Position numbers and translations under genes: made by a program | DNA from: Brevundimonas pondensis | GTDB taxonomy: Bacteria; Pseudomonadota; Alphaproteobacteria; Caulobacterales; Caulobacteraceae | NCBI RefSeq assembly: GCF_017487345.1 | Contig: NZ_CP062006.1 | Location: 3,086,001 to 3,150,000, forward strand | Reading direction: 5' to 3' | Length of the DNA: 64,000 bases | The notes under the pieces: model-generated | Told to the model about the DNA's origin: nothing | Databases searched by the model: none | The model's input: only the letters and a program-made list of their open reading frames with translations | Shown here: positions 29,723 through 61,190 of the stretch, piece after piece | Numbering within the stretch: the stretch's first letter is position 1 | How the letters are laid out: each line of letters begins with the position of its first letter

Positions 29723-29749
29723 CGCACCATCCTAAGTAGATCTGGGTAA

Positions 29750-38191: not shown

Positions 38192-38219
38192 TTAAACAGC
38201 CCCTAATCTGTAAAAGTCG

Positions 38220-38855: not shown

Positions 38856-38863
38856 CGGCGGCG

Positions 38864-39556: not shown

Positions 39557-39572
39557 GATCCTGATCCTTCCG

Positions 39573-40082
39573 TTAGCGCGCGGCCGGAGCCGCAGAGACA
39601 AGTCGCATCAAATCCGCCAGATCGGCTAGCCGACGCGAGATGACAGCAGGGTCGTAGGCCGGGGCCGTGGGCGTCACGGCCCAGCGCAACAACTGCTCGG
39701 TCATCCGGGCACCGCAATCGACCAGCCGGGCTTCATGCCGCACCAGGTCGTCCGCCGCGCCCGCCGAACCGGGGCGGGGCGCGGTCAGGGCCAAGGCCAG
39801 AAATTCCTCGGCGGCGGTCATCAGACCCATGGCTACGTCGGAGTGACGATTCAGGTCCTGTTCGATGATCCGCACAGCGCGCACCGCCGCCGCAAGTTGC
39901 TCATGACTGATGACCAGGGCCACCGGGAAGGAATCGACCGGCTCGGCCCTCTGCCGCGCCTGCCGAATCAGGCCCCGAATTTTGTCGCTGGCCGTAACCG
40001 CGCCATCCACTTCCAGCTTCGTGAGAAAGCTGGTGTCCTCATCGGAGAGCCTGACGCTCAATGGTGTGTTGAGAGAAGCCAT
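39573..40082 (-). CDS. Small protein heading the PspA/flotillin operon, possibly RHH-type
   Basis: About 169 aa from ATG 40082 (MASLNTPLSVRLSDEDTSFLTKLE). PLSVRLSDEDTSFL followed by VTASDKIRGLIRQARQ resembles a ribbon-helix-helix DNA-binding fold, and the rest is helical with no known motif. AAGGAGG lies only one base before this ATG, too close for ideal spacing, so the GTG at 40121 (13 codons earlier) is an alternative. It is the first gene of the operon and may autoregulate it; function otherwise unknown. Confidence 0.6.
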   Translation of the reverse strand: MASLNTPLSVRLSDEDTSFLTKLEVDGAVTASDKIRGLIRQARQRAEPVDSFPVALVISHEQLAAAVRAVRIIEQDLNRHSDVAMGLMTAAEEFLALALTAPRPGSAGAADDLVRHEARLVDCGARMTEQLLRWAVTPTAPAYDPAVISRRLADLADLMRLVSAAPAAR

Positions 40083-40427: not shown

Positions 40428-43094
40428 ATGAAACTGGTGTTCGGGCTCGGGGCTGACGGTCGCATCTGGCCGGAAACGGCGGAAGCCGCAGGCGATCTGG
40501 ATGACGCCGTCGTCGGGCCGCACGGCCTGGTCGGCCTGATCGAATCTCAGCTCGGCCTCGGGGGACCGATCATCTCCCACCCCTCGCGCGTCGCCGCCTG
40601 GCTCAGCAAGGTGCGGGCCGCCGGCTCCGGCCGCTTCTGGGCCCAGTCCTTCGACAAGGACCCCTGGTCCACCGCCGAGACCCTGCTGGACTGGCGCGAC
40701 GCCCTCGTGGACGGGGGCTGGACGGGTCAGCGCGTCGGCGCGGCCCGGATCGACGACCTGGCCGACGCCGGTCATGCCGGCGCGCCGTTGCCGCCCGGCC
40801 TGGCGGACCGGCTCGCGCTCGCCGCCCTCAGCATCGCCGACCGCCCCGGCCTGCGCATCGCCTCGCTCGCTCTGATCGAGCCTCGCGATCTGGCGCCTCC
40901 GGCCATCGCGCGTCTGCTCGATGCGTTGGAGGCGGCCGGGGTGGAGATCATTCCGCCCTCCGCCCCGACGCTCGCCGCCGCGGGATCGGACCTGCGCCGC
41001 GTTCAGGACGCCTTGGCAGGGGGTGGACGGGACGCGCTCACCGGCGACGGCTCGCTTGTCGTGATCCAGTCAGACACCGCCGTCATGGCCGCCGAGACCG
41101 TGGCGGACTGGCTGGCGTCGGGGCCCGCCGACGCCGTGATCCTTGCGCCCGACGGCGACACCGCTCTGCTGGACCGGGCGCTCAAGGCCCGGGGTCTTCC
41201 GGCGCTCGGTCTGTCCGGAGCCTCGCCCTGGCGGGGCGCCTTGCAGGTCCTGCCCTTGGCGTTCGCGACGGCATGGCAGCCCTTCGACGCCCGCGCCCTC
41301 CTCGACCTGATGATGCTTCCGCGTCCGCCCATCTCACGTTGGGCCGCCCGCCGCCTCGCGAGGACCCTGGCGGAACACCCCGGCACGGGCGGCGCCGCCT
41401 GGCTCGAGACCTGGGCGGGTCTCGAATCGCGGCTTCTCGAGCTGAATGCGGCGGAGGAAGACCCCGAGGGGAAGACCGGCCTGACACTAGCGCAGTGGCG
41501 CGCCTGGACACAGGTCGGCCAGCACGACCGGGCCGTCGGTATGCCGCTTGACGCCGTGCGCGAGATCGCAGGGCGCGTGGCCGCCTGGGCCATCCGGATC
41601 GACGGCGGCGGACAAGACCCCTTGTTGCTCGGCGTCGCCTCGGCGGCGGGAGCCCTCGTCGACGCCGCCACGCGCCTGGAGTCGCCGGTCATCCCCGCCC
41701 TGCTTCTGGAGCGTATGATCGGTCAGGTCCTGGCGGACGGCGTTTCCAACCCCGCCCACATCGCCGAGGCCGGCGCCCTGCGCGCCGTTCGGGCGCCCGG
41801 AGCGCTGTGGAGATCCGCGCCTCGGGTGATCTGGTGGGGTTTCGCCGGACCGGGCGAGAGGGTCGCGCCCGAGCGATGGGACCGGGCGGAGCGGGCCGCG
41901 CTCGCGACTGCCGGCGTGACCCTGGAAACGCCTGCGGCCGCCTCGGCGCGGATCGGCGCCGGCTACGCCCGCGTCGTGATGAACGCGGCTGAGCAGATGT
42001 TGCTGGTGCGGCCGGCCCTCGCGGGCGGCGAGCCCACGACCGCGCACCCGCTCGCCCACCAGCTTCGCCCACTTCTGCAGGACGCGGCGGACAGCGTGTT
42101 CTTCCGGGCCGAACGTCTGTTGGCGGAGCCCGTGGCGGATCTGGCGCGGCGGTCCATCTCCCGCACCCCCGTCGATACGGTCGATCCGCCCGCAGGCGCG
42201 CCGCGATGGACGGTCGCCGCCGATTTGTCGGCCGCGCTCGACAGCCGCGTAGAAAGCGCAACCTCCCTGGACCGGCTGTTCAACTGCCAGATGGGATGGT
42301 TCGCCCAGGACGTCCTCGGCCTGCGTCGCGGTCGCCATGCTCAATTGCCGGAGACGAGCCAATTGTTCGGGGCTCTGGCCCACGAGATCGCACGCCGGCT
42401 GCTGCCTGCCGGTCCGCCGCCGCCCTGGGCCGAGGTTCGCGCCAGCGCCCTGGCCCTGTTCGACGAACTCCTGCCCGCCATGGCCGCGCCATTGGCGCGG
42501 CCCGAACACGCCGGCGAGCTCGCCGCCGCGCGGGAACAGGTGCCCGCGGCGATGGAGGCGCTGGTGCGACTGCTGCACGAGCGAGGACTCGAGGTGGTGG
42601 GCGCGGAGTTGCCGCGCGAGGGCCGTTTTGGCGATCTGCCGCTCACCGGACGCATCGATCTGATGGTCCGCCGCGGCGCCGAGGTCGCCGTGCTCGACCT
42701 GAAGTGGACACGGTCCGACCGCCGCTACGTCTCGATGGTCGCAGATGGCGTCGCGGTGCAGCTCGCCGTCTATCACGCTCTCGCCCGGGCCGACGGCGTT
42801 GTGGCACCGGGCGGCTATTTCCTGCTGCGGCAGCGGCGTGTCGTCGCCAGCGCGGGATCCTTCCTGACCGGCGACCCGGTCGAGGCTGTTCGTCCCGACG
42901 ACGACACCCTGCGGATCGTGTCGCAGGATTGGGCGGCCTGGACGGCGCTCGCCCGCGATGGTGTTCTGGTCGCCGCCGGCCTGCAGGGTTCCGCGGCGGA
43001 CCGGCCCGACGACCTCGGTTTCGCGGCACCGGCGGAGCCTTGCCGCTACTGCGACCTCACCGGCCTGTGCCGCATCAATGTGGAGGCGCTGTGA
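40428..43094 (+). CDS. AddB-like Fe-S PD-(D/E)XK nuclease
   Basis: An 888-aa protein whose C-terminal third is a RecB/AddB-type nuclease: LFGALAHEIARRLL (about residue 648), GRIDLMV, then VAVLDLKWTRSDRRY (catalytic D...DxK, about 741-761) and VQLAVYHALAR. One cysteine in LFNCQMGWF (about 619) and three in CRYCDLTGLC (about 871) give the C...CxxCx5C pattern that binds a 4Fe-4S cluster in AddB and Cas4. The N-terminal two thirds look like an inactivated helicase-like scaffold without Walker motifs, also as in AddB. It overlaps the next gene at TGATG, so the two subunits are probably made together. It differs enough from housekeeping AddB, and sits in an accessory context, that I treat it as a specialised paralogue. 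Confidence 0.75.
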   Translation: MKLVFGLGADGRIWPETAEAAGDLDDAVVGPHGLVGLIESQLGLGGPIISHPSRVAAWLSKVRAAGSGRFWAQSFDKDPWSTAETLLDWRDALVDGGWTGQRVGAARIDDLADAGHAGAPLPPGLADRLALAALSIADRPGLRIASLALIEPRDLAPPAIARLLDALEAAGVEIIPPSAPTLAAAGSDLRRVQDALAGGGRDALTGDGSLVVIQSDTAVMAAETVADWLASGPADAVILAPDGDTALLDRALKARGLPALGLSGASPWRGALQVLPLAFATAWQPFDARALLDLMMLPRPPISRWAARRLARTLAEHPGTGGAAWLETWAGLESRLLELNAAEEDPEGKTGLTLAQWRAWTQVGQHDRAVGMPLDAVREIAGRVAAWAIRIDGGGQDPLLLGVASAAGALVDAATRLESPVIPALLLERMIGQVLADGVSNPAHIAEAGALRAVRAPGALWRSAPRVIWWGFAGPGERVAPERWDRAERAALATAGVTLETPAAASARIGAGYARVVMNAAEQMLLVRPALAGGEPTTAHPLAHQLRPLLQDAADSVFFRAERLLAEPVADLARRSISRTPVDTVDPPAGAPRWTVAADLSAALDSRVESATSLDRLFNCQMGWFAQDVLGLRRGRHAQLPETSQLFGALAHEIARRLLPAGPPPPWAEVRASALALFDELLPAMAAPLARPEHAGELAAAREQVPAAMEALVRLLHERGLEVVGAELPREGRFGDLPLTGRIDLMVRRGAEVAVLDLKWTRSDRRYVSMVADGVAVQLAVYHALARADGVVAPGGYFLLRQRRVVASAGSFLTGDPVEAVRPDDDTLRIVSQDWAAWTALARDGVLVAAGLQGSAADRPDDLGFAAPAEPCRYCDLTGLCRINVEAL

Positions 43095-46000
43095 TGGCCC
43101 GACTCACCGCCGTCACGGCCTCCGCCGGCGCGGGAAAGACCACGCGCATCGTCGGCGACATCGCCGCCGAGGTGGCCATCCGGCCGCCCGAGGAGATCGT
43201 CGCCACGACCTTCACCATCAAAGCGGCGGATGAACTCGTCGAGCGAGCGCGGGCGCGTCTGTTCGGCGACGGGCGGACGGACGCGGCCGCCCGGCTGCTC
43301 GGCGCCCGGTTTGGGACGGTCAACGCCGTCTGCGGCGAGATCGTTTCGGAGTTCGCGCTCGATCTCGGACGGTCTCCCTCCACCGCCGTCATCGGCGCCG
43401 AGAACGAGTCCCTGATCTTCTCGATGGCGGCGGATCGCGCCATCGCCGCCCATGCAGCGGTCCTCAACGACCTGGCCGATCGCTTCGGCTACAATGACCC
43501 GCGACCGCCGACGGGCGGAGAAGGACCGGACTGGCGCCGGACGGTTCGCCGGATCGTCGATCTGGCGCGCGCCAACGGTCTGGACGCGGACGGCGTCCGC
43601 GTCTCGGCCGACCGCTCGATCGCTTCCTGTCGATCGCTTCCGCCGGCTGCGGCGTCGGACGGCGATGCGCTCGACACAGCCCTGAGCGACGCCCTCTCGG
43701 CCGTCATGGCGGCGCGACCCTCCGAGCTGAGCGCGAAGGCGAAAAGGCCGATGGAGGTCGTCCGGGCGGCGCATCAGCGTCTCGCCCGCGGCGAGAGCCT
43801 GTCGTGGCCTACCTGGGCCAGGCTGGCCAAGGCGGAATGCGCGCCCACCAAGGACGGACCCGCCTTCGCTTCGGCCATGACGGCTCTGGCCGCCGCGGCT
43901 GGACGGCATGCGGATCATCCCCGTCTTCGCGTGGACATCGAAGCCTTCATCCGCGCCACCTTCGACTGCGCGGCGGAAGCGCTCACCGCCTACCAGGACT
44001 GGAAGGCCCAGCGGGGCCTGCTGGACTTCACCGATCAGGAGGCGCTGGCGCTCGAGGTTCTGCGTGATCCGGCGATGGCCGCCCGGCTGAGAGAGCGGAT
44101 CAGCCGGGTGTTCGTCGACGAGTTCCAGGATTCCAGCCCGCTTCAGCTGGCGGTGTTCACAGCGCTCGCGGGTCTGGTCGAGGAAAGCACCTGGGTTGGC
44201 GATCCCAAACAGGCCATCTACGGCTTCCGAGGCGCCGACACGGATCTGACGCAGGCCGCGTTCGCCGGCGCCGCCTCGCAGGGAGAGTCGGCGGACGTGC
44301 TGGCCACCTCCTGGCGCAGCCGTCAGGGCATCATCGACCTGTCGAACGCCCTGTTCACGCCGGCCTTCGACCGCATGGGATTGCCGGCGGCCAATCACGC
44401 CTTCGCCAGGACAAACCGCTCCGAGACCGGTTTTGACCGGGCCGCTTTGGGCTGGTGGACCCTGACCGGCAAGGTCGATGAGCAGGCTCAGGCGCTCGCC
44501 GCGCAGGTCGTGGCCTGCCTCGATGACGGCGGTGAATGGTTGGTGGAGGACCGGTCGGGTGAGCACCGCCCGCTCTCGATCGGCGACATCGCCGTGCTCT
44601 GCCGCACCAACACCGACGTGGCCCGCTACGCGCGGGCGCTCAGCCAGGCCGGCCTGCCGGTGGCGGTGGAGCGTGGGGGGCTCGCGCGAACGCCCCATGT
44701 CGAACTGGTTCTCGCGGCCTGCCGATGGGTGGCCGACGCCTCTGATCGTCTCGCCCTGGCGGAGCTGGCCCGGTTCTTTTCGGACGATCCGGAATCGGAC
44801 GCCTGGCTCGGCGCCGCGGCGGAGGCTGACGCCGAATCCGCCCTGTCCGACCTCGTGCCGGTCGCCGAGGCGCTCGCCGTGCTGCGTACGGACATCCTCG
44901 CCCTCACGCCTGCGGAACTGGTCGACGCGGTGACCGCCCTTCCGGAGGTTATGGCGCGCATCGAGCGTTGGGGCGACACCGCGATCCGGTTCGACGACCT
45001 CGAAGCCCTGCGGGGGTTCGCCCGAACCTATGAGACCGAGTGCGTCTCGTCCGGCGCGCCCGCGACGCTTCCCGGCCTGATCCTGGCGCTCGACGGCGCC
45101 GATCCCAAGCGCCCGCCAAGCCTCGCGGCCGAAGCCGTCCAGGTGATGACCTATCACGGCGCCAAGGGGCTCGAGTGGCCGATGACGGTTCTCGTCGGAC
45201 TCGGCTGGGAGCCCAAGGCTCGCCTGTTCGAGCCCGCGGCGGAAGTTGATGGCGACATGGATTGGCGGGACCCGCTGGCCAATCGCTGGATCCGGTTCTG
45301 GCCATGGCCTTATGATTCCGCGGGCGGGGGCAGCGCCCTGGAGGCGGCGGTGGCCGAGTCCGCGTTCGGCCAGGCCGCCTGGCGACGGGCCGTGCAGGAA
45401 GACACCCGCCTGCTCTACGTCGGCGTCACGCGAGCCAGGGACTACCTGATCTTCGCCGCGCCGCCGAAACGCCCTGCGTGGCTGGCGGTGCTGGACGCAG
45501 CCGACGCGCCGCCCCACGTCACACCGCCGGCCGTAGACGACAATCTGATCGGCGTCGGCGACGCGACCTTCCTAGCCGATGTGCGTGTGCTGGCGGCGGA
45601 CGAGGGCGCAGCGCCCCGGTATCCCCAGGCGCCTCACGTGACCGCGCGCGTGGCTGCGGCGCCGCCTGCGTCTCCTCTCTTCGTCAAGCCCAGCGGCGCG
45701 ACCGGCGGCGGCTGGCGCGTGGTCGAACGGGTGGATCTCGGACCAAGGCTCGGGATCGACGGGGTGAGCGACATGGCGGCCTTAGGCGAAGCGCTGCACG
45801 CCATCCTGGCTTACGACGATCCGACGCGGGACGGCGCCCGGCGTCTCGCTGATGCGGACGCCATCCTGCGGCGCTGGTCGGTGGCCGGGCTGTCCGCGAC
45901 AGATGCCGTGGAGGCGTCCACCCGTCTTCGCGCCTGGCTGGCGGACCGTTGGCCCGACGGCGCGATCCTCAGCGAAAGCCCGATCCGCGCCCGCGTCGGC

Positions 46001-46249
46001 GATCAGATCGTGCAAGGGCGGATCGATCTGCTTGTCCGGCACGCTTCGGGCGTCGCCCTCGTGGACCACAAGAGCTTCCCAGGGGCGTTCGATCGGTGGG
46101 ATGAACACGCGCTGAGACACGCCCCCCAGTTGGGACTTTACGCCGACGCGGTGACCGCGGCCTCGTCGGACGCCTGCGACGCCCTGTTCATCCATATGCC
46201 CGTGGTCGGCGCGATCCTGAGGCTGGAAAAGGACAGCGAAGCGACGTGA
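43094..46249 (+). CDS. AddA-like UvrD helicase-nuclease
   Basis: About 1051 aa from ATG 43094; the open frame extends further upstream but that part lies inside the nuclease gene. SF1A helicase motifs are: Walker A SAGAGKTT (residue about 10), TFTIKAADELVERAR (Ia), VFVDEFQDSS (II, about 338), WVGDPKQAIYGFRGAD (III), TSWRS (IV), MTYHGAKGLEW (V, about 687) and LLYVGVTRARDYL (VI). The C-terminus has a RecB-type nuclease: GEALHAIL, GRIDLLV, ALVDHKSF (D...DxK) and QLGLYADAV. It would form a two-subunit helicase-nuclease with the preceding protein for end processing or defence. GC-rich codon use is like the flanking genes. Confidence 0.85.
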   Translation: MARLTAVTASAGAGKTTRIVGDIAAEVAIRPPEEIVATTFTIKAADELVERARARLFGDGRTDAAARLLGARFGTVNAVCGEIVSEFALDLGRSPSTAVIGAENESLIFSMAADRAIAAHAAVLNDLADRFGYNDPRPPTGGEGPDWRRTVRRIVDLARANGLDADGVRVSADRSIASCRSLPPAAASDGDALDTALSDALSAVMAARPSELSAKAKRPMEVVRAAHQRLARGESLSWPTWARLAKAECAPTKDGPAFASAMTALAAAAGRHADHPRLRVDIEAFIRATFDCAAEALTAYQDWKAQRGLLDFTDQEALALEVLRDPAMAARLRERISRVFVDEFQDSSPLQLAVFTALAGLVEESTWVGDPKQAIYGFRGADTDLTQAAFAGAASQGESADVLATSWRSRQGIIDLSNALFTPAFDRMGLPAANHAFARTNRSETGFDRAALGWWTLTGKVDEQAQALAAQVVACLDDGGEWLVEDRSGEHRPLSIGDIAVLCRTNTDVARYARALSQAGLPVAVERGGLARTPHVELVLAACRWVADASDRLALAELARFFSDDPESDAWLGAAAEADAESALSDLVPVAEALAVLRTDILALTPAELVDAVTALPEVMARIERWGDTAIRFDDLEALRGFARTYETECVSSGAPATLPGLILALDGADPKRPPSLAAEAVQVMTYHGAKGLEWPMTVLVGLGWEPKARLFEPAAEVDGDMDWRDPLANRWIRFWPWPYDSAGGGSALEAAVAESAFGQAAWRRAVQEDTRLLYVGVTRARDYLIFAAPPKRPAWLAVLDAADAPPHVTPPAVDDNLIGVGDATFLADVRVLAADEGAAPRYPQAPHVTARVAAAPPASPLFVKPSGATGGGWRVVERVDLGPRLGIDGVSDMAALGEALHAILAYDDPTRDGARRLADADAILRRWSVAGLSATDAVEASTRLRAWLADRWPDGAILSESPIRARVGDQIVQGRIDLLVRHASGVALVDHKSFPGAFDRWDEHALRHAPQLGLYADAVTAASSDACDALFIHMPVVGAILRLEKDSEAT

Positions 46250-46268
46250 AGGCGCAGGGGCGACGCGC

Positions 46269-47279
46269 ATGATCACAGTCGATCCCGCATGGTGGGAACA
46301 TCTCACGCCGCCCGACATGCATCCACATCGGGCGACCTTCGACGCCATGATGCATCGGTTCCTCGGCACGGCGCGCGGCGTGAGCTGGCTACGGTCGGCC
46401 ATGACGCCTGACGGCCTCATCCGGGTCCGTCTAGGCCAGCCGATTCCGGTCTTGCACGTCGCCCTTCTGGGCGGCGCGCTTCCTATCCTGATCCCGCCCC
46501 GGATCATCGAACCCGAGCATCGCGCGCTGGGCCCGACCGCCATGCGGTCCGGCCGCCCCTTGGCCCCGGGCGAGCTGGCGCTCTGTCCCGAGATCCGGTT
46601 CGAGCTGGTGACCGATCCGGTCATGCTCGACGCCTTGCGGGTCGGCGCGTTCGATCAGCCCTTCGTCGGCGTGACCCGGCCAGCCCAGATCTTTTCAACG
46701 CCGGCGCACCATCTCCTTAGGCCCACGTCCAAGCCGGATGGGGCCTTCGTCCTCTATCAGCACATCTTCGGCCACGCCGCGTCCTACCCCGACGACGGCT
46801 GGTTCTATGTCGGAGTCACGACCCGGCGTTGGCAGACCCGGTGGGCGGAGCATCGCCGCGCCATCGGCAGCGGGAGCCGACTCCGGTTCCATCAGCGGTA
46901 TCGCGACGAGACTGCCGCCGACCGCGTATCCTACGTCCATCATAAGGTCATGGCCGTAACCGACGACATCGAGCGCCTCTACAATACCGAAACATGGCTG
47001 CTGGAAGGCCACCGGCAGGACGCGCGCCTTCTCAACATGAGCGCTGGAGGCCGGGCGGGCCGCCGCCGGACGCCGGGTGCCTCCTCATTGAGCGCCGACG
47101 CCAGCTGTGCGCCGCCGCCGCGCCGCCGCGCCCCGCGCCTCACCCTGGACCAGCTCAACGCCATCCGGGGACTGGAAGCGCTCGCGACAGCCTCCGAGAT
47201 CGCGAGACGGGTCGCGGCCGCCAGCCCTCGGCAGGTGCGAGACGTGGTCGCAGGCCGCACCTACCGCAACGCGCGCTGA
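46269..47279 (+). CDS. GIY-YIG-like nuclease-domain protein
   Basis: A 336-aa protein, 19 bases after the helicase gene and likely in its operon. Around residues 178-260 are GWFYVGVTTRRWQTRWAEHRRA, then ETWLLEGHRQDARLLNMSAGG. These resemble the GIY-YIG elements YxGxTxxxxxRxxEH, the catalytic Glu and the terminal LNxxxGG. The first tyrosine pair is not perfect, so activity is uncertain. The N-terminal about 170 residues are of unknown family. The C-terminus is basic with a helix-turn-helix-like LDQLNAIRGLEALATASEIARRVAAASP that could bind DNA. A strand-nicking accessory to the helicase pair is a reasonable guess. Confidence 0.6.
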   Translation: MITVDPAWWEHLTPPDMHPHRATFDAMMHRFLGTARGVSWLRSAMTPDGLIRVRLGQPIPVLHVALLGGALPILIPPRIIEPEHRALGPTAMRSGRPLAPGELALCPEIRFELVTDPVMLDALRVGAFDQPFVGVTRPAQIFSTPAHHLLRPTSKPDGAFVLYQHIFGHAASYPDDGWFYVGVTTRRWQTRWAEHRRAIGSGSRLRFHQRYRDETAADRVSYVHHKVMAVTDDIERLYNTETWLLEGHRQDARLLNMSAGGRAGRRRTPGASSLSADASCAPPPRRRAPRLTLDQLNAIRGLEALATASEIARRVAAASPRQVRDVVAGRTYRNAR

Positions 47280-47487
47280 GGCTCGGGAGCTCGCAACGAA
47301 CCTGAAGCCCGACCGGGGCGCTGGCGATGGGAGCCGCCCCGCAGCTCGCGCGCCACCGGCCCGGCGTTCACGCGCGCCGCGCGCTGGATGTCCCATGCAC
47401 GCTGGACGGCCGCCTTTCCGATTCGCCATAGACCAGCCGGCGGTCCAGCAGCGGCAGGCAACCACGAGCAGAGGCCGAGCCGGGTCA

Positions 47488-48783
47488 TCAGGCCGCGGGC
47501 CGGGCCTGATGTTCCGTTCGACCCGACGCCTCGCAGCCGACCGGGCAGCCGGGATGGGCCGACAGGCCGAGCCGGGCATATTCCCAACCCTCGGGACGCA
47601 GCGGGCTGAACCAGGTTTGATCCCCGGACAGGTGGCGATCGCGTTCACGAAACAGAAGCCGTAAGGCGAGGAGCAGCCCGGCCCAGAAGGAGACGAACGC
47701 CACCGTCGGGATCGGACCATCGGTCATGCCGGCCTGCGGATGAAGACAGCCGACGCAAGGGGTCGTCGCGTCGTGCGAAGACACCTGGACGGCGAAACCG
47801 ACCGTGGCGCCGACGCCCATCCAGTCGGGCCGCCGCCGTTGCGCCGACCAGCGCGAGGGAATGTCGTCGACGCCCAACAGGACAACGGCGGCAAGGGCCT
47901 GGCCGTCGCGATAGCGCTCGACAAGCGGCTCGATCTGCAGGTCGCAGCCGTGACGGGACAGGTCCGTCACCTTGGCCGTGCCCAGGCCTGACCGCAGCAG
48001 CAGTGCGTTGCGGTTCAGGTTGCTGAGAGCGGACTCGTCATCGTCGATCACGCGGCAACGTCCGCGAATGTCCGGCGTCCTCAGCAAGGCGAACAGGGCC
48101 GCGTTTGCGATCGCCCCGCCGCTCACTAAGTCGAACGCGCCGAGCGCCGGTTCGGGCCTTGCCCCGCCGGGCGCGAGGTCGAGAACGACGTCCGTCGCCG
48201 GGCCGAACATCCGGTCGTAGGCCTGAGGGCTCCGCGCGAATGTCGACAGGCGGCGCATCGAGACCTTGAAGGCCTCGCTGGCGGCCAGGGCCCCCGCTGC
48301 CATCGCGCCGAACGGCTGATCGGTGGCCGTCCACGCCTGCGGCGCAGCCGTGGACAGGCTGGCGGACCAGTCAGACGCGCCGATGTAAAGAACACGCCCC
48401 GCCGCCGCGGGCCCCCGGTCGCCGAAGGCGACGACGAGATCGGCCGTCGCCGGAGGGATGCCGATCTCGATCGTGCGGTCCGGCAGGAGGTCCACTCCCA
48501 CGTCACGAAGGGCGTCGTGGAGTCGATCTCCTGCCAGGGGCGGCTGGGGCTCCGGCATCGCCGCATCCGGGCAGTCGATCCAGACCCGGTGGCCGGACCG
48601 GGCCATCAGCAGGGCGGCCGTGACCACCGCCGTGCGTCCCGGCGCCGTCCCTACCAGACGGGCGTCGGCCGAGATGACCACCGACAAATCCGACAAGGCG
48701 TCGACCAGAGCGGACTCCGGGACATCGTCCCGAAGTTCGGCGCGCATCAACAGGGTGGTGCGGCTAAGAGCCTGGGCCAGCAT
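47488..48783 (-). CDS. ThiF/E1-like adenylyltransferase
   Basis: Predicted to adenylate the C-terminal glycine of a ubiquitin-like protein. Of 431 aa, residues about 35-200 form a degenerate Rossmann-like first half. Residues about 215-380 are the active-type half: SGGAIANAAL (nucleotide loop, 221-230), RVIDDDESALSNLNR (244-258, Asp, Asn and Arg of the ThiF signature), KV at 271, and GVDDIPSRW (D306, R311). Cysteine pairs C343/C346 and C413/C417 could bind zinc, though the second pair is CxxxC. The start overlaps the JAMM gene stop (TGATG). A two-half layout recalls E1 rather than simple ThiF. I cannot point to the catalytic cysteine. Confidence 0.8.
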   Translation of the reverse strand: MLAQALSRTTLLMRAELRDDVPESALVDALSDLSVVISADARLVGTAPGRTAVVTAALLMARSGHRVWIDCPDAAMPEPQPPLAGDRLHDALRDVGVDLLPDRTIEIGIPPATADLVVAFGDRGPAAAGRVLYIGASDWSASLSTAAPQAWTATDQPFGAMAAGALAASEAFKVSMRRLSTFARSPQAYDRMFGPATDVVLDLAPGGARPEPALGAFDLVSGGAIANAALFALLRTPDIRGRCRVIDDDESALSNLNRNALLLRSGLGTAKVTDLSRHGCDLQIEPLVERYRDGQALAAVVLLGVDDIPSRWSAQRRRPDWMGVGATVGFAVQVSSHDATTPCVGCLHPQAGMTDGPIPTVAFVSFWAGLLLALRLLFRERDRHLSGDQTWFSPLRPEGWEYARLGLSAHPGCPVGCEASGRTEHQARPAA

Positions 48784-49223
48784 CAGACGATCTCCAGAAT
48801 GTCGGCGATCCTCACCTCGTGGAAACGGCCGTCAGGCTCGATCCGAGCGAGAAAGGCATCGGTGAAATCCGCCGGCCCTTGGGCGAACTGCGGGATGACC
48901 AGGCTCAGGAAGCCCGGCGTGTGGATCAGCGGGAAAGCGTCGTCCGTCGCCGAATGGTAGGCGGTGCCCGGATGGGTGTGGACCTGCACGCGCACGCCGG
49001 AGCCGCTGTCAGCCAGGTCCAGCCAGAAGTCGGTCAGCCAGTCGTGATCGACCTGGAAGCCGACCGCGCTGGCGGTGTGGCGGGGATGCCGGACCTCGCT
49101 GACGAGCGAGGGGTGGGCCCAAGGGCCCACCCACAATGCCTGGCATTCCCGGCGGCCGCCGCCGCAGGACCGGAGGTGGTGGAACGTCTGCGCGAGGACC
49201 GCCGACGGAATCTGCAGCTTCAT
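48783..49223 (-). CDS. JAB/JAMM-family (MPN+) metallopeptidase
   Basis: A 146-aa zinc peptidase expected to mature or remove ubiquitin-like proteins. JAMM residues are visible: E26 in GGRRECQALWVG, H82 and H84 in VHTHPG, S91 and D94 in HSATDD; the spacing after HTHP is one shorter than in AMSH-type enzymes. It is one base after the ubiquitin-like gene and overlaps the E1 gene by one base, so all three are translated as a unit. Its role would parallel Cap3 of type II CBASS or the deconjugase of Bil systems, but neither operon type is fully matched here. Confidence 0.85.
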   Translation of the reverse strand: MKLQIPSAVLAQTFHHLRSCGGGRRECQALWVGPWAHPSLVSEVRHPRHTASAVGFQVDHDWLTDFWLDLADSGSGVRVQVHTHPGTAYHSATDDAFPLIHTPGFLSLVIPQFAQGPADFTDAFLARIEPDGRFHEVRIADILEIV

Positions 49224-49224
49224 C

Positions 49225-49941
49225 TCAGCCCCCTTGGACGACGCGGGGACGCAGGATCAGACGCGCGCCGTCGGACAGACCGGCCTGGGCGACCGTCTGA
49301 CCGAGCCCCAGCTCAGCCCCGCCCTCGCTGAACAGAACCGGGCCGCCGGCCGGGTGGCCGAAATCGGCCAGGGCGCGCTCCAGCACCGCCTGCAGCGTCA
49401 CTTCGGGACGCACCCGCTGCGGAGCGGGCGCGCCATTGTACAGGACCACGATGCCGAAGCCGGGCGTCTCGCGGGGCGCCAGGAAAAAGCGCTCGATGCC
49501 GGGTTCGTCCAGCTTGACGACGTCGTTGGGCCGAATGCGGCGGTTCTCGGCGCCGCGGGCCTGCAGGTACAGGTCCGTCGTCTCGGGATCGGCTTCGGCG
49601 AGGCCGTACAGGATGCGGCCGCTGATGAGCGGCTTGCCCCAGCGCATCTCGCTGGACTCGATGACGAACTTGTAGTCCCGGTCGGTTTCGAAGCCGATGA
49701 ACCGCTCCTCGCCGCGCGGGCGGACGTCGATGGTCTCGTCCAGCCGGATATCCTCGAACTCGCCGTCCGACAGGATCACAAACAGGCTGTAGGATTCCGC
49801 CGTGCGCCCGACGGCGGTGTTGAGGATCTGGCGGCCGGTCGGGACGGGGTCCGACAGGCTGATCGGGCGGAAGTTCAGGTCGCCGTCGGCGAACTGGATC
49901 ACATGGGCGCCGGCGGGCCGGCTGTCGTTGGGGGAGGTCAC
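49225..49941 (-). CDS. Multi-ubiquitin-like protein with a Gly-Gly terminus
   Basis: A 238-aa protein from GTG 49941 (TSPNDSRPAGAHVIQF), with GGAG ten bases upstream. The frame continues upstream only as a shadow of the helicase gene. Three beta-grasp modules can be seen: about 13-85; 89-157 (YKFVIESSEMRWGKPLISG, then LYLQARGAENRRIRPND, VKLDEPGIERFFL), typical of bacterial multiubiquitin domains; and 162-236 (GIVVLYNGAPAPQRVRPEV). The protein ends exactly in VVQGG, a free Gly-Gly C-terminus ready for E1 activation without trimming. It is followed by the JAMM and E1 genes. Targets are unknown. Confidence 0.85.
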   Translation of the reverse strand: MTSPNDSRPAGAHVIQFADGDLNFRPISLSDPVPTGRQILNTAVGRTAESYSLFVILSDGEFEDIRLDETIDVRPRGEERFIGFETDRDYKFVIESSEMRWGKPLISGRILYGLAEADPETTDLYLQARGAENRRIRPNDVVKLDEPGIERFFLAPRETPGFGIVVLYNGAPAPQRVRPEVTLQAVLERALADFGHPAGGPVLFSEGGAELGLGQTVAQAGLSDGARLILRPRVVQGG

Positions 49942-50027
49942 TGGTCTTTTACTCCATGGCCGAGGGCGAAAGTGCCCGGCTCTGAAGTTCAAACCGCCGC
50001 CAATTGGGGGAACGGGTAATTCCGTCG

Positions 50028-53000
50028 TCAGATTTTCAGCGCCCCCGCGGCGATCGGGCCGCAAACGAAGAATGCGGGGCAGTTCGGGCAGGTGAAGGCG
50101 GATTCTCTGGTCGGAAAACGGCCGTCCAGGATGTCCGCCACGAAAGCGTTGATCGCGTCGCGGCGCTTGCCGACGTCCTTGGGCGCAAGGCCGCTCACCG
50201 TCTCGACGCGGCCATCGCCCAGATAGACGACTTCCATCGCCGCGCCCGGCGACACGGCGTCGATCACCAAGGGGAAGACGGCTTCCGCCTTCGCGGTCGC
50301 GCTGGTTTTTGAATAATGCCCCGTCCGCACCCGGCGGAATACCGGACCCCCAGCACCGTCCAGGACCTCGTCGGGCTGGACATGGATGTCGGCCCGGTCG
50401 AGCGCCGCGACCAGACGTTCGCCAGACCGACCGGAGCGACCCTGGCGGCTCTCGACGAAGGCCTCGACCAGTTCGGCCGCGATCTGCCGGAAGTCGGACC
50501 CGTAGTCGTCCCCGGCGAGACCGCTGGCCTCCAGCGCGGCGTCCAGAAGCCTGTCGGCCCGGCCCGGACCGCCATCCCGGATCACGTTGGAGAGCACGTC
50601 CCGGACCACATCGTGCATGGTCAGGAAGGCCGGTCGCGTCCCGCCGTTTCCACCGATCGCCAGAAGGACGCTGTAGAGGAACTGGCGAGGGCATTTTTCG
50701 TAAAGCGCAAGCTCGTGCAAGGCGAAGGCGGGCCGCTCGCTGGAGACGACGGCGACGGGCAGGTCTTCCGGCCGCCGATCTGGCGCGGCCGGATCCGTGA
50801 GCCAGCGCTCAGGACTCCGGGTCGCCCGGCCCACGAAGGCCGACACCGCGCGCTCGGCCGCCTTCCGACCCGCCGACGCCTTGTTCTGGCGGGCCGAGTA
50901 GATGAAAAGGCGGTCACGGGCCCGGGACAGGGCCACATAGAAGAGACATTCCTGTTCGTCGTCGTGGGCGGACCGGAGCAAGGGACCGGCCGGCGTGTCG
51001 AGGCGCCCGATCAGGCCGTCAGGCGGCGGGCAGGGCTTGGTGCGGAACGATCGGGGCAGCGCCTCGTGGTTCAGGCCCGGCAGGTGGACGACGGAAAACT
51101 CCAGCCCCTTGCTGCCGTGCATCGTCATCAGCCGCACGGCGTCGATGACCTGGGCCGCCGCAGGCAGTTGCCGCAGATCCCGATCGTCCGCCAAAGCCAC
51201 GAGCCGCCGAATGCGGTCCAGCAGACGCCGCACTGGACCTCGAGCCCCGCCGCCCGGCTGGACGCGGACGAAGTTCAGGAACTGCCAGATCGCCACGCCC
51301 CGCGCCTTCGCTTCGGGCGCGACCGATGACGCGATGTCGGCGACCACACGGGTGCGGTCAAGCAGCACAGACGCCAGGACCGTCCAAGGATGGTCCTCGG
51401 CGCTGAACCCGTTCAGAGCCGCGCGAAGACGCTCCAGCGCGGCGCGCCCCTCGGGCGACACCACCGCCAGGGCGTCCGTCCAATCCAATGGATCCCGGTT
51501 CCGGGTTCGCAGGGCCGTCATGGCGGCTTGGACGTCCGCCAGCGACAAGCCGGCGGACAGCGGCGTCTCCCGGACCAGACCCATGGCCCGCGGATCGGTG
51601 AGCAGGGTCAGCCAAGACAGCAGATCCTGGATTTCGGGTCGTTCAAACAGGCTTCCGAGGTAGAGGACCGGAACTCCGCGCCGCTCCAGCTCGGATCCGA
51701 GGCGGGCGAGGCGGTCGTTTCCCGAGCACAGGATGGCCTGATCCCGCAACGCGAAGCCCGCCGCCTTCAGTTCGCCGATCGCATCCGCCAAGGCCGCGGC
51801 CTCACCGTCATTGTCCAGAAACCGGCGATGCTCCACCGGATGACCCGAGGGACCGCGCTCAGCCTTCAGAGCCGCCGGCCGTCCTGCGCCGGCCGACATG
51901 CCCGTCGCGAAGGTCGAGAAGGCCTGAACGATCTCCTCGCTCGACCGATAGTTCACCGCCAAGGGCAGGCGCGTCCCCGCGCCGAAGTCGGCTGACCCGA
52001 AGCGGTCGACGTTGAACGGCGAGGCTCCGCGGAAACGGTAGATCGACTGGCGCACGTCGCCGACGACCCACAGATTGCGCCCCGTCGGATTGAGCCGCTT
52101 CAGCAGTTCGACGCTCGCGTGGTTCACGTCCTGATATTCGTCAACGAGGATGTGGCGATAGAGCGCCCGCAGTCCGATCTCAGCCTCGGGGTCCTCGCGC
52201 AACAGCGCCACGGGCAAGGTGATGAGGTCGCCGAAATCGATCGCCCGTCTGTCGCGCTTGATCTGCTGATAGCGCGCATAGACCCGGGCGACCTCGACGG
52301 CCTTCTCGGCGGCGATTCGCGCCGTGGCGTCCTCGCCGGCGGCGCCTTCCATCGCCTGGGCGAGGGCGAGATACTCGGCCGGGTCGACGAGTTCGTCCTG
52401 CGCCCGCGAGATCGCGGCTAGGATGTCGGAGAGCTTGGAGGCGGGATTGCGGATGTCCTTATAGTGCCGCAGGCCCAGTCGGGCGGATTCCGGCTCAAGC
52501 AGTTCGATGGCCTCGACGCGATCCATCAACCGGGGCTCCCGGTCGAAACCCAGCCTTCCGAAATGCCGTTGAACCAGATCTCGTCCGAAGGCGTGGAAGG
52601 TTCCGATCCACATGGCCGCCGCAGCCTCGGGGTCCCGGGCGGCGATCCGGTCCGCGAGCTCGCCCGCGGCCTTGTTCGAGAAGGTCAGGACCAGAAACCC
52701 TCTGGGATCCGCCCCCTCGTTCAGCAGGTCCACGATCCGCTTCACGAGGGTCTGCGTCTTACCGGTCCCGGGTCCGGCCTCCACCAGGGCCGGGCCGCCC
52801 CGATGCCCGGCCGCGGCGATCTGGGACGCATCGGGCTTCGCCGGCGAGCGGGCCGGCCCTTCGGGCTCGGGTTGGATCGGCGGCAACAGGAGGGCGTCGA
52901 GGAGCTGCTGAGCCGCCACCGCGAAGGGCGCCGCGAACATCCCGGCGATCTCTGTGGCGGTCCTGCCCTCGTCGATGTGCAGCCTGCGGACGACCGGCCG

Positions 53001-53417
53001 AGGCAGGATGAGCTCCCGCGCGAACAAGTCCATCTGGACCTCGCGTCGCTGACGCCGGCCGTAGTCGATCACGCGCTCCTCGCCGACCGGGGCGGCCTCG
53101 GCCGGACGGAAGGGGTCGATCTCGCAGGCGCCGGCCGGCGCGGCGTCGCCGAGGAGGGCGTGGCCGAGTTCGTGCGCCACGTAGATGGCCTGCTCGAACT
53201 CGGACCCTGAACGGGTGTGAATGATGCAGCTGGCGTCCGCATCCAGACGGGCGAGGGCGCCGTCCAGCATCGAGTCCGGCACGGGGCACACGGTGAGGCC
53301 GTGCCTTTCCGCCTGCGCCACGACGAAGGCGTAGGGCGCAGTCGGATCGTCCCCCTTCTCGACGCCCTGTTGGTGAACGCTCGCCGCCTTCTGGCGGGCG
53401 AGCTCGATCGCATCCAT
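50028..53417 (-). CDS. Fusion of M78 (ImmA/IrrE-like) peptidase, UvrD helicase and Fe-S nuclease
   Basis: An 1129-aa three-part protein. Residues about 1-160 are an ImmA/IrrE-type zinc peptidase: AIYVAHELGHALLG (H82, E83, H86) and DLFARELILPRPVVRR. Residues about 205-870 are a UvrD helicase: EAGPGTGKTQTL (Walker A), TFSNKAAGELADRI, ILVDEYQDVNHA (II), VVGDVRQSIYRFRGA (III), MTMHGSKGLEF (V) and LFYVALSRARDRLF (VI). The C-terminus has YEKCPRQFLYS (Cys near 909) and TCPNCPAFFVC (near 1115), a C...CxxCx5C iron-sulphur pattern of AddB/Cas4-type nucleases. M78 peptidases usually cleave repressors, so the peptidase may gate the helicase-nuclease or its own regulators. The ATG directly follows the TAG of the preceding gene. 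Confidence 0.85.
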   Translation of the reverse strand: MDAIELARQKAASVHQQGVEKGDDPTAPYAFVVAQAERHGLTVCPVPDSMLDGALARLDADASCIIHTRSGSEFEQAIYVAHELGHALLGDAAPAGACEIDPFRPAEAAPVGEERVIDYGRRQRREVQMDLFARELILPRPVVRRLHIDEGRTATEIAGMFAAPFAVAAQQLLDALLLPPIQPEPEGPARSPAKPDASQIAAAGHRGGPALVEAGPGTGKTQTLVKRIVDLLNEGADPRGFLVLTFSNKAAGELADRIAARDPEAAAAMWIGTFHAFGRDLVQRHFGRLGFDREPRLMDRVEAIELLEPESARLGLRHYKDIRNPASKLSDILAAISRAQDELVDPAEYLALAQAMEGAAGEDATARIAAEKAVEVARVYARYQQIKRDRRAIDFGDLITLPVALLREDPEAEIGLRALYRHILVDEYQDVNHASVELLKRLNPTGRNLWVVGDVRQSIYRFRGASPFNVDRFGSADFGAGTRLPLAVNYRSSEEIVQAFSTFATGMSAGAGRPAALKAERGPSGHPVEHRRFLDNDGEAAALADAIGELKAAGFALRDQAILCSGNDRLARLGSELERRGVPVLYLGSLFERPEIQDLLSWLTLLTDPRAMGLVRETPLSAGLSLADVQAAMTALRTRNRDPLDWTDALAVVSPEGRAALERLRAALNGFSAEDHPWTVLASVLLDRTRVVADIASSVAPEAKARGVAIWQFLNFVRVQPGGGARGPVRRLLDRIRRLVALADDRDLRQLPAAAQVIDAVRLMTMHGSKGLEFSVVHLPGLNHEALPRSFRTKPCPPPDGLIGRLDTPAGPLLRSAHDDEQECLFYVALSRARDRLFIYSARQNKASAGRKAAERAVSAFVGRATRSPERWLTDPAAPDRRPEDLPVAVVSSERPAFALHELALYEKCPRQFLYSVLLAIGGNGGTRPAFLTMHDVVRDVLSNVIRDGGPGRADRLLDAALEASGLAGDDYGSDFRQIAAELVEAFVESRQGRSGRSGERLVAALDRADIHVQPDEVLDGAGGPVFRRVRTGHYSKTSATAKAEAVFPLVIDAVSPGAAMEVVYLGDGRVETVSGLAPKDVGKRRDAINAFVADILDGRFPTRESAFTCPNCPAFFVCGPIAAGALKI

Positions 53418-53990
53418 CTAGGCTGGCCCGTCGAGCAGGCGACGCCGTTCTTCCTCCGGCAGGCCCAGATCGCGCAGAAAGTCGGCGTAATCGAGTTTTT
53501 CGGCGGCGACCTGCGGCGCCTGACTAGCCTTGTACGCGGCCGCCTTGGCCAGACCGGCCGGCTGCTCAAGGTACTCGGCCACCGCCTCCTTCGTGCGCTC
53601 CAGACATTGCGAAAGGACGTCGAGCAGATGGGGCGGCAGGGAGTCCCTTTTGAACCGTCGGTCACGCAGATTCATGACGACGGGCATGGGCGCGCCCACT
53701 GCGGCCTGGACTTTGCCCATCATGGCGCCCGTCCAGTCGGCCGCCGTCACCGCCGTGCGCTCGGCCGACTGGATCGTGGCCCAGCCCATAGCGATGAGGT
53801 CGTCTTCGTCCGACGACGGCAGTGCGTGTCGGCTAACCTCGGTGAACGCAATGTCGTGGGCGAGATCGAGCAGGGCCTCGGCGTGGTCCGGATAGCGTTC
53901 CAGATAGAGGGATAGTGTCCGGCTGTCCGTGGCGTCCTCGAGCAGGAAGGCCTCGATGACCTGGTCTTCGCTAAGTGCGGGTCGGGTCAT
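53418..53990 (-). CDS. Unknown 190-aa protein between the sigma-like and peptidase-helicase genes
   Basis: Soluble, acidic and largely helical protein with no motif I recognise. It begins MTRPALSEDQVIEAFLLED and ends EEERRRLLDGPA. Its ATG overlaps the stop of the sigma-like gene (ATGA) and its stop abuts the next ATG, so it is an integral member of the operon. Given its partner, an anti-sigma or adaptor role, and possibly a substrate of the M78 peptidase, is conceivable. This is inference from position only. Confidence 0.7.
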   Translation of the reverse strand: MTRPALSEDQVIEAFLLEDATDSRTLSLYLERYPDHAEALLDLAHDIAFTEVSRHALPSSDEDDLIAMGWATIQSAERTAVTAADWTGAMMGKVQAAVGAPMPVVMNLRDRRFKRDSLPPHLLDVLSQCLERTKEAVAEYLEQPAGLAKAAAYKASQAPQVAAEKLDYADFLRDLGLPEEERRRLLDGPA

Positions 53991-54889
53991 GTCGAGTCTC
54001 CGAGACCCAAGGCGAGTTGAATGAGTTCGACGGCTCGGTCTCGTCGCGCCCGCGCGGTCTTCGGCGTGCAGCCTAAAAGGCCGCTGATCGACGGCGTGTT
54101 GGCGTCCTTCGCCTCGATAGGAATGTTGTTCAACGTCATGGTCGCTACTCTGCGATATTTTTCAGGCAGAGTGTCAATCGCCACCAGAACCCGTTTCAGG
54201 TCATCCGATACGTCATTTTTGGTCGCATCACTCAGTTCAGACAGCCGCGCGGCGGCCGCCTCGACCTCCGCGGACGCCTCTCGGCCATCCTCGAGAGGGT
54301 TAAGAGCCTCCTCGCGGTCCACCAGACGGTACACGGCCTTGCGAGCCGAAGACCTGTCCTTGGCGGCCGCGAGCCCGAACCGGATTTCGTAAATATCGAG
54401 CCGGTCATCGCCCTCGGCGCGGTCCTTGTGGATTTTCTCGACAAAACGATCGACGGCGTGCCGCCGGAGGTCTTCCAGAGCCCCGTCCGTGCGGATCACC
54501 CCTTCGCCTTGGCGGTCAGGGGATCGGAAGAACGACAGATAGTGCTTCATCACCGCCGTGTAGAGACGGTTGAAGCGGCTCTCATGGTTGGCGCGCCGCT
54601 CTTCGCGCATAAAGTAGACAAGAACTTCGGGACTCACAGGCGTCGCGTGCGAGGGCGCGGTCGGGCACAGCCGCGCCATGCGCTCATCTATGTCGAGCGA
54701 CAGCAGGGCCCTAATCTCGGCCTCTACCGCCTCTGGCCGATAGTACGGTGTCCCCGCCGTGGTGCGTGTAAGCGGTCGGATCAGAATCGCCTCCCCTAGA
54801 CACGGCGACCTTAGCAGCAATTGGTCACTTACCAACGGTTGCATAACTACTCGACATGCGCGGCACGGATGGCGGGCTATTTCGGACAT
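53987..54889 (-). CDS. Sigma-70-family-like (ECF-type) regulator
   Basis: About 300 aa, or 285 from an alternative ATG at 54844. FNRLYTAVMKHYLSFFR (about residues 100-116) fits a region-2-like helix. VLVAIDTLPEKYRRVATMTL (LPxxxRxV), then SISGLLGCTPKTARARRDRAVELIQLAL, is a clear sigma region-4-type helix-turn-helix. The protein is longer than a standard ECF factor and region 2 is weak, so it may be a divergent sigma factor or a sigma-derived activator. It heads the minus-strand operon and could control it in response to its partner proteins. Confidence 0.6.
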   Translation of the reverse strand: MSEIARHPCRACRVVMQPLVSDQLLLRSPCLGEAILIRPLTRTTAGTPYYRPEAVEAEIRALLSLDIDERMARLCPTAPSHATPVSPEVLVYFMREERRANHESRFNRLYTAVMKHYLSFFRSPDRQGEGVIRTDGALEDLRRHAVDRFVEKIHKDRAEGDDRLDIYEIRFGLAAAKDRSSARKAVYRLVDREEALNPLEDGREASAEVEAAAARLSELSDATKNDVSDDLKRVLVAIDTLPEKYRRVATMTLNNIPIEAKDANTPSISGLLGCTPKTARARRDRAVELIQLALGLGDST

Positions 54890-55340
54890 CTTCCGGGCCC
54901 GTGTTCGCGCGTTTATCCCTCGCCAATAACGGCCTTCCCCAAGGTCGCCTTAGAGTCAAAAGCGGCTTTCCAACATCTGGTCGCTTCCTTGATCACCTCG
55001 CGGAGCACGTCTCCTCTTGAACCGCCGCCCGTGTCGCTTCATAGGTTGAATACGGTTTCGGCCGTTGGGCTATGTCCCCCGCCCCTTCGGGGGCCAACCA
55101 CGCCGATAAAGACCTTCTGGGTCCTCGCTCTGGGATAGACGTGTCACAGCATCCATAAGCGTCGCTTGGACGGGCCCATTGGCGCCCGGCTTTCCTTCCA
55201 GCTGCCTCAGAGATCCCTGCGCCTTTATCGCCCGACGAGTTCACGGGCCCTAACTTCAGCTCAACACAGGTCCATGACTTGATCCGTCGGTCGGTGCAGT
55301 GGGGGATCCTCGCTCGAGACCCCGCCAATGACGCGCTCGC
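54890..55340. other. Intergenic region upstream of the sigma-like gene
   Basis: About 450 bases without a supported gene. A 111-aa minus-strand frame (54993-55328) has no family features and is not called. GCCCC, three bases, GGGGC near 55081-55093 may form a small hairpin. The minus-strand promoter of the ubiquitin-like/helicase operon should lie near 54895-54990. Confidence 0.4.
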
Positions 55341-57855: not shown

Positions 57856-57901
57856 CGAGGGTTTCCACGTAAAACAGCACCAACCACTCATTAACCCAGC
57901 C

Positions 57902-59034: not shown

Positions 59035-59489
59035 ATGCGTGCCGCCCTCTACACCCGCAGCGCCAGCGTTCCCCAACAATCCGCCGGGATCCATGACCCG
59101 TTCATGGCGTGCCGCACCTTCGCCGAGCGCGAAGGCATCGACGTCGTCGCCGCCTTCGAAGATGCAGGAGCATCCGGCGTTTCCAGCGTCGATCGTCCTG
59201 GTTTCCTTGACCTGATGCAGGCCGCCAAAATCGGCGTGTTCGACGTCGTCATCTGCGAGGGACTGGATCGCCTGTCTCGATCCCAGGCGGACATCCTCGA
59301 CATCTTCGAAGCCCTGCGCGTCCTTGACGTCTCAGTCATCACGCTGGCGGACGACCGCGTCGACGGGATGCAGGTCTGCGAAAGCGGAGCTTCGGACATC
59401 CCTCGGCTCAAGGCGATGCAGCGCAAGGCTATGACCGAACACCAGGGCGATGAGACCAGCCCGTCCGCACCCGAGCTCGAGGCCGCGTA

Positions 59490-59490
<1 letters not shown>
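59035..59490 (+). CDS. Mini serine recombinase lacking the catalytic serine
   Basis: A 151-aa protein resembling only the resolvase domain of the next gene: MRAALYTRSAS aligns to MRAALYARFSS, and VAAFEDAGASGVSSVDRPGFLDLMQAA and CEGLDRLSRSQADI also match. At the YxRxS catalytic position it has Ala10 in place of Ser. DNA-binding recombinase, zinc-ribbon and coiled-coil domains are absent. Its TAA overlaps the ATG of the full recombinase (TAATG), so it is co-translated. It could be an inactive partner that tunes the active enzyme by forming mixed dimers, or simply a decaying duplicate; the clean coupled frame favours the first. Confidence 0.75.

Positions 59491-61190
<1,700 letters not shown>

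Follow-up and report, generated by a model that had tools for sequence, protein, structure and literature searches.

An M78 metallopeptidase-UvrD helicase fusion beside ubiquitin-like operons of Brevundimonas pondensis and other bacteria, with an AddBA-like pair as an occasional partner

Operons of the Bil type (BilABCD) encode a ubiquitin-like protein (Ubl) with a Gly-Gly end, a JAMM peptidase (BilC), an E2 (BilB, with a CEHH motif) and an E1 (BilD), the last composed of an inactive and an active adenylation domain and a Cys domain that carries the catalytic Cys417 (PMC11354881). Bub operons are described in PMC13373217 as a putative immune family often under DNA-damage regulators, for which phage protection had not been demonstrated at the time of that paper. 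According to PMC13373217 and PMC10904395, CapH+CapP and PprI-DdrO are pairs of an M78 protease and a helix-turn-helix (HTH) protein activated by single-stranded DNA, and CapW or CapH+CapP is found in 219 of 544 Bub operons. Here we describe a related locus in Brevundimonas pondensis (assembly GCF_017487345.1, contig NZ_CP062006.1), within a stretch of 64,000 nucleotides, hereafter the window, of its single-contig 3.55 Mb genome (G000:C1:3086001-3150000, G000 being the window genome). A triad of an ECF-like sigma factor, an XRE-type HTH protein (190 amino acids (aa) in the window) and an M78-UvrD-Fe-S fusion (M78-UvrD) stands in front of a ubiquitin-like (Ub-like) module, and triad and module together form the core of the block. 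We consider it about an even call that we are dealing with a Ub-like system of Bil/Bub type that responds to DNA damage or invasion, switched by M78-UvrD and joined in some lineages by helicase-nuclease genes.

A first-pass annotation had placed nine open reading frames (ORFs) here in two convergent operons, and all nine are present where it had put them. The operon on the + strand starts at 40428 and ends at 47279, while the one on the - strand is read from 54889 down to 47488, in the order sigma factor, 190-aa protein, M78-UvrD, triple Ubl, JAMM peptidase and E1-like enzyme; the gap between the two ends is 208 bases. The genes are, by position:

40428..43094, + strand: AddB-like PD-(D/E)XK nuclease, 888 aa, with a GRID...LDLK motif and CxxC-x5-C (Pfam PDDEXK_1, 79 bits)
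43094..46249, + strand: AddA-like UvrD helicase-nuclease, 1051 aa (Pfam UvrD-helicase, 124.6 bits; PDDEXK_1, 34.8 bits)
46269..47279, + strand: 336-aa protein, possibly a GIY-YIG nuclease, a weak call (Pfam GIY-YIG, E=0.32, 11.7 bits against a cut-off of 22.6)
47488..48783, - strand: E1-like enzyme, BilD-like but without the Cys domain, 431 aa (PADLOC BilD, 40.8 bits; 8tyz, E=1.9e-21)
48783..49223, - strand: JAMM peptidase, 146 aa, motif HTHPGTAYHSATD (PADLOC BilC, 47.6 bits)
49225..49941, - strand: triple ubiquitin-like protein, 238 aa, C-terminal Gly-Gly, GTG start inferred (Pfam Multi_ubiq, 115 bits; 8u38, BilA, E=3.2e-28)
50028..53417, - strand: M78 metallopeptidase-UvrD helicase-Fe-S fusion, 1129 aa, nuclease motif degenerate (Pfam M78, 40.1 bits; UvrD, 206.5 bits)
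53418..53990, - strand: 190-aa protein, XRE-type HTH at residues ~80-145
53987..54889, - strand: ECF-like sigma factor, 300 aa as listed, of which residues 35-300 were modelled

The linkage of the triad to Ub-like modules was surveyed in GTDB with an M78-UvrD alignment of eight seeds, every one of them from a Ub-linked locus. All triad counts from GTDB rest on the best 80 of at least 584 confirmed stretches: 69 belong to the M78-UvrD family, 11 are generic UvrD and were left out (L099, L100, L102-L110), and a further seven, cut by contig ends (L055, L067, L070, L079, L088, L092, L101), were set aside from the 69, which leaves 62 evaluable loci, a frame-broken copy (L061) being counted as found. 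A Ub-like module lies within 6 kb of M78-UvrD in 57 of the 62. These modules comprise 30 of the ThiF kind (ThiF/DUF6527), 18 BilABCD, 7 E2/ThiF and 2 JAMM/E1, as labelled with our own profiles, some of which scored weakly (L036, L048, L065 and L066, ThiF at 46-76 bits; L072 at 51; L090, E1 at 57). For two of the BilABCD sets, L059 and L069, each gene was compared with PADLOC BilA-D, with scores of 173 to 558 bits (in L059, BilA 183, BilB 199, BilC 205 and BilD 558 bits); BilD of the L069 kind had no solved match at E<=0.001. By record titles, the hosts of triad loci include Proteobacteria, Myxococcus, Gemmataceae, Opitutaceae, Chloroflexota, Candidatus Manganitrophus and Acidobacteria.

The same association was found among 390 genomes of the window's family, where M78-UvrD (E<=1e-150) occurs in 15 and is adjoined by a Ub module in all 15 (7 BilABCD, 4 JAMM/E1, 2 ThiF, 2 E2/ThiF). 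BilB was likewise matched in 15 of the 390, and all eight strong matches (201-215 bits) come after M78-UvrD, the helicase of one (G300) being represented by no more than a C-terminal fragment (38 bits) where the contig begins; no M78-UvrD was found alongside the seven weaker matches (128-158 bits). Multi_ubiq is present in 42 of the family genomes and is adjoined by the triad in seven (G000, G077, G170, G214, G150, G128, G286), so most multi-ubiquitin systems of the family use something else. Of three related JAMM-E1 loci that lack the triad, two (G052, G152) have a standalone M78 gene nearby. Since M78-UvrD precedes very different Ub modules, complete BilABCD sets included, while these two loci without it have a separate M78 close by, M78-UvrD with its sigma and HTH partners is more likely a sensor-regulator than an effector.

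Two side observations concern the same loci. M78-UvrD stands without a recognised Ub-like module within 6 kb in L064, L075, L078, L095 and L098, and L064 shares one genome, M. brachiatum B0021, with L090. Distantly related bacteria (Leptolyngbya, L023; Klebsiella, L022; Acinetobacter) have plasmids that carry the ThiF/DUF6527 module, accompanied by the triad in L022 and L023, and the spread of this module looks plasmid-borne.

Conservation of key residues was assessed in an alignment of 83 M78-UvrD proteins, the window protein included. The HExxH residues are kept in 80-82 of the 83 and the third ligand Glu in 81, Walker A is intact in all, and each of four Fe-S-type Cys is kept in 82. The protease, helicase and Fe-S parts of the fusion are therefore as annotated at first, but its nuclease is not. 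In the aligned nuclease stretch, [DE]xK was found in 0 of 83 proteins, Arg occupies the two nuclease-motif places in 57 and 54 of them, and the window protein has a weak Pfam PDDEXK_1 match of 19.7 bits, below the cut-off of 22. An active nuclease in M78-UvrD is rejected on residues, [DE]xK being missing, and the earlier description of the block as holding two Fe-S nuclease helicases must be given up, the nuclease site of this one being lost. Because the protease, helicase and Fe-S residues are kept and [DE]xK is not, we read M78-UvrD as a protease-helicase that carries an Fe-S domain and is probably no nuclease.

The window appears to have in common with CapH+CapP and PprI-DdrO an M78 protease with HExxH adjoining an HTH protein; it differs from them in the fusion of M78 to a UvrD helicase and an Fe-S domain and in the added sigma-like gene. 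The HTH region of the 190-aa protein aligns with CapH (7t5u) and DdrO (6rnz), in one predicted model and with modest Z. The family profile of this protein is matched in 65 of 68 loci; a Pfam HTH is absent in 8 of 9 members, and a search by sequence for solved relatives returned only unrelated proteins, at a best E of 0.014. For the sigma-like gene the sequence match is weak (E=0.012), and the annotation gains support from the predicted sigma fold: the region 4 fold is present in the model, and for region 2 the whole-length structural rows to sigma factors have a root-mean-square deviation of ~9-23 and a best Foldseek E of 0.009. An exact inverted repeat, GACCTT-N3-AAGGTC, occurs in L054/L128 (one locus) and L151. 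With one mismatch allowed it is found at two places in the window, 23350 and the following, which is a lead only:

54931..54946, - strand: candidate operator GACCTTGGGGAAGGCC, 5' of the sigma gene (inverted-repeat match)

An operator common to the sigma and AddB promoters was looked for and not found. A recurrent neighbour of the triad, found on the upstream side of the sigma gene in eight loci (L024, L026, L027, L028, L046, L052, L061, L101), is an AbiEii/DUF6088 toxin-antitoxin-like pair.

The window's own Ub module was compared with Bil. Its Ubl was correctly recognised as a triple ubiquitin-like protein, with Multi_ubiq matched over two stretches and residues 164-230 weakly matching other Ub-like families; the start is most likely the GTG at 49941, giving 238 aa with the end ...VVQGG, and not the longest-ORF start at 50694. 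PADLOC BilA gave no match for it, and the nearest solved proteins are Methylobacterium brachiatum 9d5b (multi-ubiquitin protein) and 8u38 (Ubl-BilA). In L090, the Ubl directly after M78-UvrD is nearly identical to the solved M. brachiatum protein (9d5b alignment; 8u38 scores alike), and that locus differs from the window in an extra, unassigned gene between Ubl and JAMM and in a more distant E1 (57 bits). The JAMM and E1 assignments hold as well: both fall below Pfam cut-offs, yet they match PADLOC BilC and BilD, and when two homologues are added to the alignment the E1 also matches a BilD of known structure (8tyz). The module thus has in common with Bil a Ubl with Gly-Gly, a JAMM peptidase and the adenylation part of a BilD-like E1, and the same triad precedes BilABCD in relatives.

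However, BilD 349-436 is replaced in the window E1 by ~8 residues (profile positions 353 and 361 flank the gap), so the Cys domain is missing, and the only invariant Cys among three homologues are four in a ThiF-like CxxC...CxxxC arrangement. The BilB model had 0 matches in the window genome at E<=1e-10, and there is no E2 gene among the nine. The window further differs from Bil in its three Ub domains and in the sigma, HTH and M78-UvrD genes in front. The Ubl ends in Gly-Gly in all five distinct loci with triad and JAMM/E1 (window, L129, L016, L054=L128, L153), the distant L090 ending in AGV, and in 0 of 40 Ubl ORFs of ThiF-type loci (three of the 40 being pieces of one broken gene). Given that two features that define BilABCD, the BilB E2 and the E1 Cys domain, were looked for and are missing, the module is Bil-like but should not be classed as Bil. 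As the E1 is without a Cys domain and a BilB-type E2 is absent from the genome, the Ubl may be passed on directly from the adenylate, or via another enzyme.

The AddB-like and AddA-like pair (AddBA) shares gene order and domains with housekeeping alphaproteobacterial AddAB. It is not the only such pair in the genome: housekeeping AddA (1165 bits) and AddB (815 + 62 bits) are at G000:C1:23083-29518, and the window pair is therefore extra. The addA_alphas model gave the window AddA-like protein 152 bits against a cut-off of 860.75, and addB_alphas, at E<=0.001, picked out the housekeeping locus and no other. The window pair as housekeeping AddAB is ruled out by this separate full set. Linked AddB-like proteins keep the D-x-K motif (7 of 7 aligned). 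The third gene of the operon, annotated as GIY-YIG-like, is a genuine ORF on the + strand with a weak family call. It is conserved in G077/L129, where the copy has no Pfam GIY-YIG match, and comparison of the window protein with the L017 nuclease for a GIY-YIG relation gave no real alignment.

Whether the two operons are neighbours elsewhere depends on the kind of triad locus. AddBA adjoins four of five loci that join the triad to Ubl, JAMM and E1 (the window, G077, Brevundimonas variabilis G170/L054 and Rhizobium beringeri L016, but not G214; four of six if the distant L090 is counted). In the family, an AddB-like match (E<=1e-30) occurs in 20 of 390 genomes; in five of these a Ub module is no more than 10 kb away, and four gene orders are seen. 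G000 and G077 have the same convergent order, the 336-aa gene included, and G170 has AddBA on the same strand after E1. Two genomes have no triad: in G040, a WYL-like regulator (by eye) is divergent upstream of multi-Ub, ThiF, DUF6527, AddB and AddA on one strand, and in G048 AddBA is convergent with multi-Ub, ThiF and DUF6527. Outside the family, AddBA stands beside Ub modules on the R. beringeri plasmid pRlX1 (L016), on pTiL-11 and in Mesorhizobium L-2-11. Among the matches listed, AddB is within ~2.2 kb by position in 11 of 14 plasmid records with a ThiF at least 85% identical to that of L025, a count made by hand on 60 of 115 ThiF records and mostly of related rhizobial plasmids, pTiL-11 and Mesorhizobium L-2-11 included. 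Triad and AddB co-occur in four genomes of the 390 against 0.77 expected (p=0.005), and AddB is present in three of four genomes with triad and JAMM/E1 but in 17 of the remaining 386 (Fisher p=4.5e-4); neither test takes phylogeny into account. AddBA is accordingly regarded as a recurrent but dispensable partner of the triad/Ub block. On pRlX1, a second multi-Ub/ThiF/DUF6527 operon (L016:5778-8126) is divergent from the window-type operon, by YhaN/exonuclease genes.

Several results weigh against a firm link of AddBA to the block. Across the 62 evaluable GTDB loci of all kinds, AddB near the triad is a strong match in one (L054) and a weaker one in another (L071, an AddB/UvrD pair of 220 bits ~0.8 kb from the sigma gene). 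G214 has the triad, JAMM and E1, and AddBA was not found in ~19 kb before and 9 kb after them, across an inferred contig break. Many AddBA pairs sit with WYL or other defence genes, and no Ub gene is annotated in the 30-kb region covered for the plasmid-borne AddB nearest to that of the window (S. terangae, 61%).

The domains, residues, predicted folds and linkage were computed here, and from them we infer each biochemical step of a system switched by M78-UvrD. The helicase/Fe-S part would engage abnormal or single-stranded DNA, which would activate the fused M78 protease to cleave the 190-aa XRE-HTH protein; cleavage would free or derepress the ECF-like sigma factor and turn the operon on. 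The products would be the triple Ubl, with Gly-Gly already exposed, the E1 and the JAMM de-conjugase, and the BilD-like E1 without a Cys domain would adenylate the Ubl. Where AddBA is linked, it would serve as an effector that processes this same DNA, whether or not it is itself a target of the Ubl. The precedent of CapH+CapP and PprI-DdrO counts for such a switch, as do the standalone M78 genes near the triad-less loci of G052 and G152.

A broader formulation, which we hold tentatively as somewhat unlikely in full, is that M78-UvrD is a dedicated switch of bacterial Ub-like immunity which senses the state of DNA and, in different phyla, activates Ub operons of the Bil, multi-ubiquitin and E2-less kinds, and that in one alphaproteobacterial branch the E2-less kind with a Cys-less E1 forms, with AddBA, a single ubiquitin-regulated DNA-destruction system in which the Ubl is transferred directly from the adenylate.

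It is rather unlikely that the locus consists of two independent modules in a defence island, one being triad and Ub genes and the other AddBA with its own control, brought together by hitch-hiking on a mobile element. Such independence would fit the AddBA pairs found without Ub genes, often next to a WYL regulator or to further defence genes (L017, L021, L183, L184, L188), the triad with JAMM/E1 but no AddBA in the stretches covered of G214, and the 15 of 20 AddB-like family genomes in which neither BilB nor Multi_ubiq was matched up to 10 kb away (a search that would overlook modules with a single Ub and that ran on several short contigs). Yet the adjacency recurs in varied orders and with varied partners in five of the 20 (G000, G077, G170, G040, G048), and both the enrichment of AddB in triad+JAMM/E1 genomes and the 11 of 14 plasmid records argue against chance company. 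That M78-UvrD and AddBA are instead the nucleic-acid effectors of one defence system, their activity controlled by attachment of the Ubl to these enzymes or to a protein of the invader, is unlikely. AddBA does adjoin Ub modules in several ways, convergent (window, G077, L016), on the same strand after E1 (L054/L128), after DUF6527 (L026, L027, G040) or convergent with the ThiF type (G048), and M78-UvrD is a full-length helicase with Walker A intact throughout, but its nuclease motif is lost and AddBA is missing near most triads. A sulfur-carrier role of the Ub-JAMM-E1 trio, of the MoaD/ThiS or QbsE/CysO kind, comes to mind because E2 and E1 Cys domain are missing, and the mature Gly-Gly ends, the ThiF-like Cys of the E1 and the absence of a BilB match would suit it, but it is very improbable in view of the three fused Ub domains, best solved match BilA (8u38), the BilD-like E1, the place after the same triad as BilABCD, and nine genes with no biosynthetic one among them.

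Other described systems were also compared with the M78-UvrD-switched block. Among the Pfam and PADLOC matches listed, none of the nine proteins is a CD-NTase as in type II CBASS, and similarity to Gabija is limited to generic GajB/UvrD, with no GajA (OLD-family nuclease) among the matches listed. The likeness to Bub operons is one of description, not of gene content set side by side. A search of open-licence PMC returned no title or abstract opening on M78-UvrD with Ub-like operons; Chambers 2024, Ye 2026 and Gong 2025, which lie outside that search, may report it.

To the right of the block are:

59035..61157, + strand: two serine recombinase genes by tRNA-Met, likely a mobile-element end (Pfam Resolvase, 68.5 and 92 bits; Recombinase, 70.7 bits)

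These genes end beside tRNA-Met (61114-61190). Similarity to congeners G103 and G057 ends at window positions 40121 and 40103, and many relatives of the block are carried on conjugative plasmids. Together, these features suit a mobile element from ~40.1 to 61.1 kb, though they do not prove it: a clean empty site was not found, the rest of the G103 and G057 stretches being compared without a match to the window, and a search for a tRNA-Met attachment-site repeat gave as the only other genome match a 77-base tRNA copy at 751930-752006, presumably a second tRNA gene. Near the recombinases, at 57857-58793, is a direct duplication (75-91% identical, spacing ~515-545 bases) with no gene in a simple gene call. 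Immediately left of the block, flotillin, YqiJ and PspA genes lie in a row (36410-39601), and a search of 40 other genomes of the genus gave long matches to the PspA stretch in 4. Further left, at 20615-33879, genes for an ABC exporter and an HlyD-like protein come after a 3035-aa low-GC ORF, the set possibly encoding a giant secreted protein and its exporter.

On the question of what triggers bacterial Ub-like systems, and through which DNA signal, M78-UvrD, which stands beside a Ub module in 57 of the 62 evaluable loci and ahead of every strong Bil locus of the 390-genome family (in one as a fragment), is a concrete candidate for the trigger. An E1 that does without both a Cys domain and an E2 would offer a test of the minimal machinery for Ubl transfer, and the recurring link to AddBA suggests a DNA effector.

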